Source of the DNA: a virus | IMG/VR virus record: IMGVR_UViG_3300028840_007026 | Coordinates: 1-64,000 of that record | Length of the DNA stretch: 64,000 bases | Strand: one strand, 5' to 3' | Part shown: one piece after another, positions 1 through 2,651 of the stretch | Position numbering within the stretch: position 1 is the first letter of the stretch | Layout of the letters: each line of letters opens with the position of its first letter | The notes under the pieces: model-generated | What the model was told of the DNA's origin: nothing | The model's input: the letters and a program-made list of their open reading frames with translations, nothing else | Databases searched by the model: none | Position numbers and translations under genes: made by a program

Positions 1-595
1 AAGTAATACTTTTATTCCCTATCCTTGTTACTTTATAAACCTGATCGCATATTGCTATTAGTTCATCATCATGGGAAACCATAATTACTTGTATTCCCAG
101 GTTGGTTGACAGGAACTTGAGCATTTGACCGGTTTTTGTAATTAGTTTCCCGGTAAAGCGAAACGGTTCATCCAGTAAAAGGACATTTCTTTTCCTTGGG
201 TTTTCCATGTGCCAGAGAATAATCTTTAAAGCAATGGAGATGACGTCTATAATGCCTCCTCCCATATCTTCTTTCGGGTCTAATTCCTGTCCATATTCTT
301 CTATAATTGGATAAGCATAGACCCGATTATTTTTACTTTCGAATCTCATCTTAAAAGAGAAGTCTCTATCTTCAAATACGGATTGTATAGCAAGTGTAAC
401 AAGATTCTCTATACGTTCCTTTGTCTCTTGTTGTGTTAGTTTTGAAACCTCTGTAAACACTGTCCTTGCCTTCTCATGAGCACTAATTTCCCTTTTTATA
501 GAGGCGATTTTGCCCTTTGAAGACCTCACGCTTTTTCTAACGAGAATCTTTTTTGCGATTAGACTATCGTAGAGTGCATAAACAGATGCTGTCAT
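1..595 (-). CDS. Rad50/SbcC-like ATPase, C-terminal half (partial, runs off window)
   Basis: The frame opens at ATG 595 and is still open at the window edge (198 codons visible), so the 3' end is missing. The visible part has an ABC-ATPase signature-like segment (DMGGGIIDVIS, residues 110-120), Walker B VLLLDEP (138-144) and an H-loop SHD (174-176). It has no Walker A. These are the C-terminal-lobe elements of Rad50/SbcC/gp46. The matching N-terminal lobe, with Walker A and half a zinc hook, is a separate gene at 1701-2651. The two probably assemble as a heteromeric ATPase with the Mre11-like nuclease, processing DNA ends for recombination-dependent replication. The start overlaps the upstream stop as ATGA. 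Confidence 0.82.
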   Translation of the reverse strand, partial: MTASVYALYDSLIAKKILVRKSVRSSKGKIASIKREISAHEKARTVFTEVSKLTQQETKERIENLVTLAIQSVFEDRDFSFKMRFESKNNRVYAYPIIEEYGQELDPKEDMGGGIIDVISIALKIILWHMENPRKRNVLLLDEPFRFTGKLITKTGQMLKFLSTNLGIQVIMVSHDDELIAICDQVYKVTRIGNKSIT

Positions 596-840
596 CTCAA
601 CTTCTCCTCTATTTTGGAAAGTTTCTTCTCAGCTCGGATAAGCAATTGCCTTTCCTTTAAAGAGAGTTTTTCAATCTTTTCAAAGAGAGTGTTCAATTGT
701 CGTTTAACATGATTTGGACTTAATCCATATTCTTTTATCTTTTTCTCATAACGTCTCAATTCATGTTCATAAACTTCGATGGTTGTTTGTGCAGCTTGTA
801 GTCTTGTCTGTAATGCTTTAATTCTCTGTTCGATTCCCAT
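592..840 (-). CDS. Small coiled-coil protein between Rad50 halves
   Basis: An 82-residue, highly charged protein with heptad-like Leu/Ile spacing over nearly its whole length, predicted to be almost all helical coiled coil. It has no catalytic motif. It overlaps the Mre11-like gene upstream by 23 nt and the ATPase C-terminal half downstream by ATGA, so it is translated with the nuclease complex. By position and composition it could supply a piece of the coiled-coil arm missing from the split Rad50. That is inference. No named family is recognised. Confidence 0.6.
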   Translation of the reverse strand: MGIEQRIKALQTRLQAAQTTIEVYEHELRRYEKKIKEYGLSPNHVKRQLNTLFEKIEKLSLKERQLLIRAEKKLSKIEEKLR

Positions 841-1723
841 TTATAATCTCCATTATAATTTGTTTCACTCTTCTCTCTTTTATTTTTCTTATAAATTTTT
901 TTATTTTTTCTTTTCTCAGTTCTTTCGGATTGATATTTTTTAATGCTACAGTGAATGCTTCCAATTCACGTTTGGATATTTTCTTGGGATCGATGTGATC
1001 TCGAGTGAGTACTTCTTCTGGAGGTCGGCAAGGAATATAAACTTCTTCAAGTGAAAAATCATCTGAATCCCATACGAAAAATTTAGGATTGTGGCCGAAA
1101 TTATAACTATTTGCCTCTAACCTAAGTAGTGGACCAGTATTTACAAGTTGCCTACCGTTTATCTTGGCAGTAAAGGATCTATGGATATCTCCAACCAAGA
1201 TGAGATCATATCTATCATGCTTTTTAAGGAAGTACTTTGGATGTGTATAGTCGTGACCAGACCATTCCTCTTTTTCAGCAATTGATTTGTGTAGTACAAG
1301 GATATTCTTGTGATTTCTGGTCGGAGTTGGGATTTTCTCTCCCCAATTAGCTCCATAGATGGAAACATCTTCCATGGCGACCGGATCGGAACTAAGAGGG
1401 GAGATCATCCCAGACCTGATTAGGGTAAGCATAGTTGTTGGAGCTTGAGAAGTTTTGGAACGCAAATACATATCGTGTTGTCCAAATACTGTCATGAATG
1501 GTATTTTATATAACTTGAGTTTTACCATGTAGTAATCAAGGACTGTCCAACTTCTCGATTGATCTGACAAATCTCCAGCTTGGAGAATTGCATCGATTTC
1601 TTTTTCAACAGCATAGTTGAGAATGAAAGAAAATTTACTATCAAACGTTTCTGATATGTTGTCTTTTCTTGCTACCGGAATCTTATCAGTAGCATGGATA
1701 TCACTTAGTAACAGAAATTTCAT
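818..1723 (-). CDS. Mre11/SbcD-like metallophosphoesterase (gp47-like)
   Basis: A 301-residue calcineurin-like phosphoesterase. Motifs in order are LLLSDIHATD near the N-terminus (D8, H10), AGDLSD near residue 50, a GNHD-variant GQHD near residue 82, a histidine in VLHKS near 145, and GDIH near 180. Together they form the two-metal site of Mre11, SbcD and T4 gp47 nucleases. The C-terminal 100 residues are charged and probably make the ATPase-binding and capping region. The gene lies between the two halves of the Rad50-like ATPase, as expected for the exonuclease subunit of that complex. GQHD in place of GNHD is a small departure from the usual motif. Confidence 0.88.
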   Translation of the reverse strand: MKFLLLSDIHATDKIPVARKDNISETFDSKFSFILNYAVEKEIDAILQAGDLSDQSRSWTVLDYYMVKLKLYKIPFMTVFGQHDMYLRSKTSQAPTTMLTLIRSGMISPLSSDPVAMEDVSIYGANWGEKIPTPTRNHKNILVLHKSIAEKEEWSGHDYTHPKYFLKKHDRYDLILVGDIHRSFTAKINGRQLVNTGPLLRLEANSYNFGHNPKFFVWDSDDFSLEEVYIPCRPPEEVLTRDHIDPKKISKRELEAFTVALKNINPKELRKEKIKKFIRKIKERRVKQIIMEIINGNRTEN

Positions 1724-2651
1724 TTCTCAACCTCATAACCGTTGATTGTTTTATTGGACTAAGACAGATTGGGCATTTACGGGCATTTTTCAATTCTTCA
1801 ATAAACTCATTTGCCCGTTTTTTTACTTCTATTTTACTCGCTCTGATTGATTTTTTAATTTCCTGATACTTCTCAAGTACTTCGCACTGTTCATCTATCA
1901 ATTCGATTTCGGAACTAACCTTATTCAGTTCATCTATTATGCTGCGAAGTCCTAATACCTTTTTCTCACATTTAATCTTTAGTTTTATATCTTGAATTGT
2001 GGAATAATTTTCTTTCAGCCGGTCGTATTTCTTCTCAGCTTTTAATCGTTCTTTTTTGAACATGTTTGCTTCAAATAAAATTGGTTCAACATCTTCCAAT
2101 CCATCCATTTTATCAAGAACGATTAAACTTTTTTCTAATTCTACTTCAAAAACGGTTTTCTCAGCTTTCAAAGTTCTCAATTTTGAATTGACAGTATTAA
2201 TCCACTCATCGAAGTCATCCATACCAGTAGCAGCATTAATAACCTTGGAAACTTCTGATGGTTTAGAAGTTACAAGAAATGGTGGATCAAACTGGTCTTG
2301 AAAATTGATTTCTGAAATGTTGAGAGCTTGTGTAATTTCATCAGGAACTTGTCTACCGAATTTTCTAAATTTATTGCCGTTTAAGGAGTACTCTGCTACG
2401 CCTTTCCCCTTTTTAATGGAGACGGTAGAATTCTCCTTGGTAGTTACTTCTACCTCCGCGATTAATTTTTCATCCTTATTCCGTACAAAGCCAATTCCCG
2501 CCGGTTGAAGGAAGATTAAGAGACGTAATGCTCTTAGGATGTTTGTTTTCCCGGATTGGGATACACCTATAATTCCATTGATCCCAGGACAGAAATTAAA
2601 GCTTGCATTTTCGTATGACCTGAAGTTTCGCAACTTTACTGACGGTACCAT
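1701..2651 (-). CDS. Rad50/SbcC-like ATPase, N-terminal half with zinc-hook CxxC
   Basis: A 316-residue protein from the ATG at 2651, chosen because AAGGAAAG lies just upstream; the open frame extends ten codons further. The N-terminus has the RecF/SMC strand (VKLRNFRSYENASFNF) followed by Walker A GVSQSGKT (29-36). A charged coiled coil then runs to CPIC near residue 293, the half-hook of a Rad50 zinc hook. The protein ends about 23 residues later. It has no signature motif or Walker B; those sit in the gene at 1-595. The split falls at the apex of the coil, so each gene encodes one arm. It overlaps its neighbours on both sides. Confidence 0.85.
   Translation of the reverse strand: MVPSVKLRNFRSYENASFNFCPGINGIIGVSQSGKTNILRALRLLIFLQPAGIGFVRNKDEKLIAEVEVTTKENSTVSIKKGKGVAEYSLNGNKFRKFGRQVPDEITQALNISEINFQDQFDPPFLVTSKPSEVSKVINAATGMDDFDEWINTVNSKLRTLKAEKTVFEVELEKSLIVLDKMDGLEDVEPILFEANMFKKERLKAEKKYDRLKENYSTIQDIKLKIKCEKKVLGLRSIIDELNKVSSEIELIDEQCEVLEKYQEIKKSIRASKIEVKKRANEFIEELKNARKCPICLSPIKQSTVMRLRNEISVTK

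Follow-up and report, generated by a model that had tools for sequence, protein, structure and literature searches.

How much of the long Rad50 arm must be one continuous chain? The question is raised by a phage locus in which the first-pass annotation described a Rad50/SbcC ATPase divided into two genes at the zinc hook, with an Mre11-like nuclease and a coiled-coil protein between them. The window that was analyzed is a stretch of 64,000 nucleotides (positions 1 to 64,000) from the IMG/VR virus record IMGVR_UViG_3300028840_007026. We first asked whether the division is real, then whether it occurs in other genomes, and finally what the lengths of the separate parts suggest about the assembly of the arm. 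The division was confirmed, and the same division was found in at least 176 other distinct viral and prophage loci.

Gene organization of the locus

The positions of the four genes and their motifs are presented in Table 1. The gene for the Rad50-like N-half begins with an ATG codon that is preceded by the Shine-Dalgarno sequence AAGGA, and 20 residues follow the last cysteine of the CPIC motif, rather than the approximately 23 given in the first-pass annotation. The C-half contains the signature region EDMGGGIIDVIS, the Walker B sequence NVLLLDEPF, and the H-loop sequence VSHDDEL. The four genes start in frames 2, 1, 0, and 1 (position mod 3), overlap by 23, 23, and 4 nt (the last as ATGA), and each has its own Shine-Dalgarno-like sequence. 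The record is 81,355 nt with a 144-bp terminal repeat, and thus the C-half could be followed across the junction into L003, the part of the record beyond the window edge. The missing end adds only SLIKKYERKIRRRNG and a stop codon, and there is no second CxxC. Upstream lie genes for a 5'-3' exonuclease, a UvsX/RecA-like recombinase, and a gp32-like protein, and further on a DNA polymerase, a DnaB-like helicase, and a primase. This is a replication-recombination region of a tailed phage, as a tape measure protein is also encoded.

Table 1. Positions of the features of the split Rad50-like locus and of associated genes in relatives
Source	Position (nt)	Strand	Feature	Residues
Window	1701..2651	-	Rad50-like N-half: Walker A lobe, Q-loop, ascending arm, C-terminal CPIC half-hook (stop codon 1701-1703)	316 aa
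Window	2544..2567	-	Walker A motif GVSQSGKT	29-36
Window	1764..1775	-	Zinc-hook motif CPIC	293-296
Window	818..1723	-	Mre11/SbcD-like nuclease	301 aa
Window	592..840	-	Protein X, predicted two-helix coiled coil	82 aa
Window	1..595	-	Rad50-like C-half: N-terminal coil, variant signature, Walker B, H-loop; last 15 aa and stop beyond the window edge, near record position 81165	213 aa in all
Window	254..262	-	Variant ABC signature core GGG (SGG in canonical Rad50)	112-114
Window	167..184	-	Walker B, ending in D142-E143	138-143
Window	71..73	-	H-loop histidine	H175
L003	17455-17697		Cys-rich protein with several CxxC motifs, just downstream of the C-half	80 aa
L005	6584-7156		AP2/HNH-type gene directly behind the N-half	
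L017	5163-5687		AP2/HNH-type gene directly behind the N-half	
L024	6005-6544		AP2/HNH-type gene directly behind the N-half	
L006 (Microbacterium phage Magritte)	284-934		C-half	
L007 (Microbacterium phage Magritte)	5001-6053		N-half without CxxC	

The identity of the two halves was established with profile searches and a structural model. In the PHROG collection, the C-half matches phrog_15167 (ATPase, 211 aa) over nearly its full length (5e-28), and the N-half matches phrog_16465 (exonuclease, 491 aa; 1e-27) and phrog_77 SbcC (1e-9). Members were therefore already catalogued, but as separate families with generic names, and no link between them as halves of one Rad50 is given in the entries returned. 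Profiles of 33 aligned N-halves and C-halves match archaeal Rad50 best in the PDB, with values of 5.9e-21 for the N-halves (M. jannaschii Rad50) and 1.2e-16 for the C-halves (P. furiosus Rad50). The AlphaFold2 model of the N-half (mean pLDDT 84, pTM 0.43) has the N-lobe, helices 144-181 and 185-290, the hook loop, and a short helix 302-314, and it matches Rad50/SMC heads. The N-half also matches the P-loop regions of RecF, OLD, GajA, and PtuA weakly, and one may ask whether the two proteins are separate regulators related to RecF/SMC-type half-domains rather than partners. This is very unlikely, since each half lacks the motifs that the other holds, the best hits of both are the matching halves of Rad50, and they co-occur with Mre11 in 287 of 288 loci (see below). 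A comparison with anti-phage defense systems that use SMC-like proteins (Lamassu, Gabija, MADS) gave only matches to the ATPase domain (best mad3, 3e-13) and none of the system-specific proteins.

Split loci in other viruses and prophages

Searches of IMG/VR, phage records, and GTDB genomes gave 288 loci that hold both halves. No ORF contains both halves, and 287 of these loci also carry X and an Mre11-like gene. After the removal of near copies, 177 distinct loci remain, of which 155 have the order N-Mre11-X-C and 19 have the order N-X-C-Mre11. The second order is that of Bacillota prophages (hosts found: Paenibacillus, Brevibacillus, Sutcliffiella, and Moorella) and of Bacillus phage vB_BboS-125. 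In Microbacterium phage Magritte, the C-half and a hookless N-half lie about 93 kb apart on the record, and thus even linkage can be lost. Only about five of 50,697 phage records match any one C-half query, against 3,283 with a match to the one-chain T4 gp46, so the design is mainly one of uncultured viruses.

These loci bear directly on the possibility of an artifact, in which a sequencing error, pseudogene, intron, frameshift, or split intein conceals a single Rad50 chain. Split genes in phages may often arise by homing elements, and an AP2/HNH-type (homing-endonuclease-like) gene does sit directly behind the hook-ending N-half in several Bacillota phages, including vB_BboS-125, a possible relic of how the gene was broken. 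However, a 67%-identical copy with the same four intact ORFs is present in loci L004/L009, the same break is found in 288 loci, and Mre11 or other genes lie between the halves in two different orders. A median of 8 residues follows the hook, which is too few for an intein half, and the genes have their own ribosome sites. We consider this explanation to be all but excluded. The first-pass annotation regarded the position of the nuclease between the halves as a weakness of the case, but the opposite is true, because N, Mre11, X, and C travel together. The split is a widespread, clade-level design, not a peculiarity of this phage, and the 82-aa protein is a conserved part of the set.

A maximum-likelihood tree of the N- and C-lobes places 33 split proteins on one side and eight one-chain proteins (from T4, S-RIM8, Kayvirus, Enterococcus, Campylobacter, Vibrio, and Salmonella phages, and E. 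coli SbcC) on the other with 100/100 support. E. coli SbcC and the Vibrio row are long branches, the sample of one-chain proteins is small, and the root is not inferred. T4 gp46/gp47 and the one-chain phage SbcC/SbcD proteins similarly combine a Rad50-like ATPase that has a hook CxxC with an adjacent Mre11-like nuclease in a replication/recombination gene cluster. However, gp46 is one chain of 560 aa with the hook in the middle, and the small genes between gp47 and gp46 in T4 (46.1/46.2) do not look like X. No description of a split Rad50/SbcC in phages was found in the open-access literature that was searched. Papers on giant phages discuss one-chain SbcC (PMC5105663, PMC7824862), and the paper on vB_BboS-125 does not mention SbcC (PMC6375668).

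The hook, protein X, and the lengths of the arm

In the alignment of 33 N-halves the invariant columns are G29, G34, and K35 of Walker A, P103, Q120, and C293, P294, and C296 of the hook. The N-half carries CxxC near its end in 173 of 177 distinct loci; the other four lack a strict CxxC. The C-half has no matching CxxC, and hence a hook can only be made by two N-halves. In the 33 C-halves D142 is invariant, and E143, GGG, and Q169 are nearly so. The ABC signature LSGGE is not retained: it is nearly always GGG followed by a conserved Asp (GGGxxD rather than the SGGE of archaeal Rad50), with the Gly-Gly core kept but not the Ser and Glu. In relatives L041, L047, and L073 it is GIG, and there and in L079 the H-loop His is also lost. 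The details of the ATPase reaction may therefore differ.

Protein X was found in 175 of 177 distinct loci, with a median length of 82 aa. It is predicted as two helices (3-37 and 42-81; pLDDT 92) with a recurring turn of the type G-[LV]-[ST]-x-[ED]. The homology of X across the set rests on profiles of coiled-coil sequence together with its fixed place and length, which is weaker than for the other parts, and BLASTP of X against the vB_BboS-125 counterpart is not significant (E 0.17). Searches of the PDB gave only generic coiled coils by sequence and nothing by fold. We also considered whether X is fused to the C-half in L017, L019, and L034, but the longer C-halves in L017 and L019 carry other extensions and X is still separate, while in L034 an X-like ORF stands apart.

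The length of the N-half arm is not continuous. From the end of the N-lobe to the hook, the distal arm falls into classes with medians of 130, 177, 222.5, 280, and 328 residues and interquartile ranges of a few residues, whereas X and the C-half coil do not follow. Pairs of close relatives in different classes differ by 45-49 residues, most often 47. On a tree of 173 loci the class changes 39 times, although this is an estimate, since a fast method was used and many forks are weak. Helix-breaking Gly/Pro peaks lie 59 and about 107 residues upstream of the hook in the shorter classes and near 65, 112, 159, and 205 in the long class, which fits units of about 47. Locating each 47-residue insertion in pairs of relatives gave no consistent site, because the arms share only about 30% identity, and a repeat profile from vB_BboS-125 found clear repeats almost only in Bacillota members. 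A similar situation has been reported for Bacillus subtilis Smc, where natural arm lengths fall into discrete modes and the functional period is 91 aa, near the superhelical period of about 99 (PMC5344682). There both strands change together within one chain in steps of about 100, whereas the steps here are of about 47, about half of that period, and on one chain only. The authors of that study state that periodic elements in Rad50 arms are untested. In the split loci the arm is cut at the hook, one strand is freed from the other, and its length varies in unit steps, which provides a ready mutant series with separable chains and, in this phage, a member of the smallest arm class seen.

Inferred architecture of the complex

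The explanation that we favor, with good though not complete confidence, is that the locus encodes an Mre11-Rad50-type DNA-end-processing complex whose ATPase is built from separate chains. In Rad50, ATP is bound between Walker A/B of one protomer and the signature of the other, Mre11 sits at the arm base, and CxxC pairs share one zinc. By inference, the N-half (Walker A, Q-loop) and the C-half (signature, Walker B, H-loop) associate in trans to form one composite ABC head, and two such heads engage around ATP and work with the metallophosphoesterase as in gp46/gp47. There is a precedent in the engineered two-chain catalytic domain of Pyrococcus furiosus Rad50 (PDB 1F2T/1F2U, 1II8), in which chain A matches the N-halves and the separately expressed chain B matches the C-halves. 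That protein is a laboratory construct without arm and hook, whereas here the split is natural, at the hook, and accompanied by X and Mre11. The composite head is the safest step in this model. It is likely that the roughly 60-residue N-terminal coil of the C-half pairs with the first arm helix of the N-half (144-181) to make the neck. The rest of the arm (helix 185-290 in this phage) would be carried by the N-half and end in the CPIC half-hook, which is inferred to dimerize with that of a second N-half through zinc. X is inferred to be a fixed-size two-helix subunit packed on the arm, which in this short-armed class could stand in for the missing return strand.

Two other arrangements of the arm can be considered. 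In the first, the post-hook tail, X, and the C-half coil together form the return strand of a canonical two-stranded antiparallel arm, and the complex is an ordinary Rad50 cut into three. For this phage the sums nearly match, with an N-arm of 143 residues against 20+82+62=164, and the predicted distal helix of 106 aa is close to X plus the tail. However, X has a conserved central break between its two helices that is compatible with a hairpin, and the N-arm lengths vary 2.5-fold without change in X or the C-half coil. Only the shortest class, which includes this phage, could be fully paired by a return strand, and the canonical two-stranded arm cannot apply to longer members. We regard this arrangement as unlikely. 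In the second, the arm beyond the neck is built from N chains only, either because the two N-halves of a dimer zip in parallel or because each N-arm folds on itself in 47-residue helical units, giving a rod that ends in the shared hook while X decorates a fixed site. The stepwise arm lengths and the spacing of the Gly/Pro peaks favor this arrangement. On the other hand, AlphaFold draws residues 185-290 as one long helix, though single-chain prediction of coils is weak evidence, and both odd and even unit numbers occur, which does not fit a strict zigzag. This second arrangement is possible but remains tentative. Equally tentative is its extension to the whole clade, in which these phages would run an Mre11-Rad50 machine without a continuous return strand, with an arm that changes by whole units while X and the C-half stay fixed, and the head-to-hook signal would have to pass through one chain only.

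The gene just downstream of the C-half in this record encodes a Cys-rich protein (Table 1), but the gene after the C-half in L009 is a different one. The Mre11-like nucleases show a further variation. Five of the seven conserved metal ligands are kept, and the positions of Pfu Asn84 and His206, probably both ligands of the second metal, read Gln and Asp in the window. Among the Mre11-like genes of 176 loci, these two positions appear to be linked, being Gln+Asp in 105, Asn+His in 35, Asn+Asp in 33, and Ser+His in 3, and never Gln+His (Fisher p 5e-18, not corrected for relatedness).
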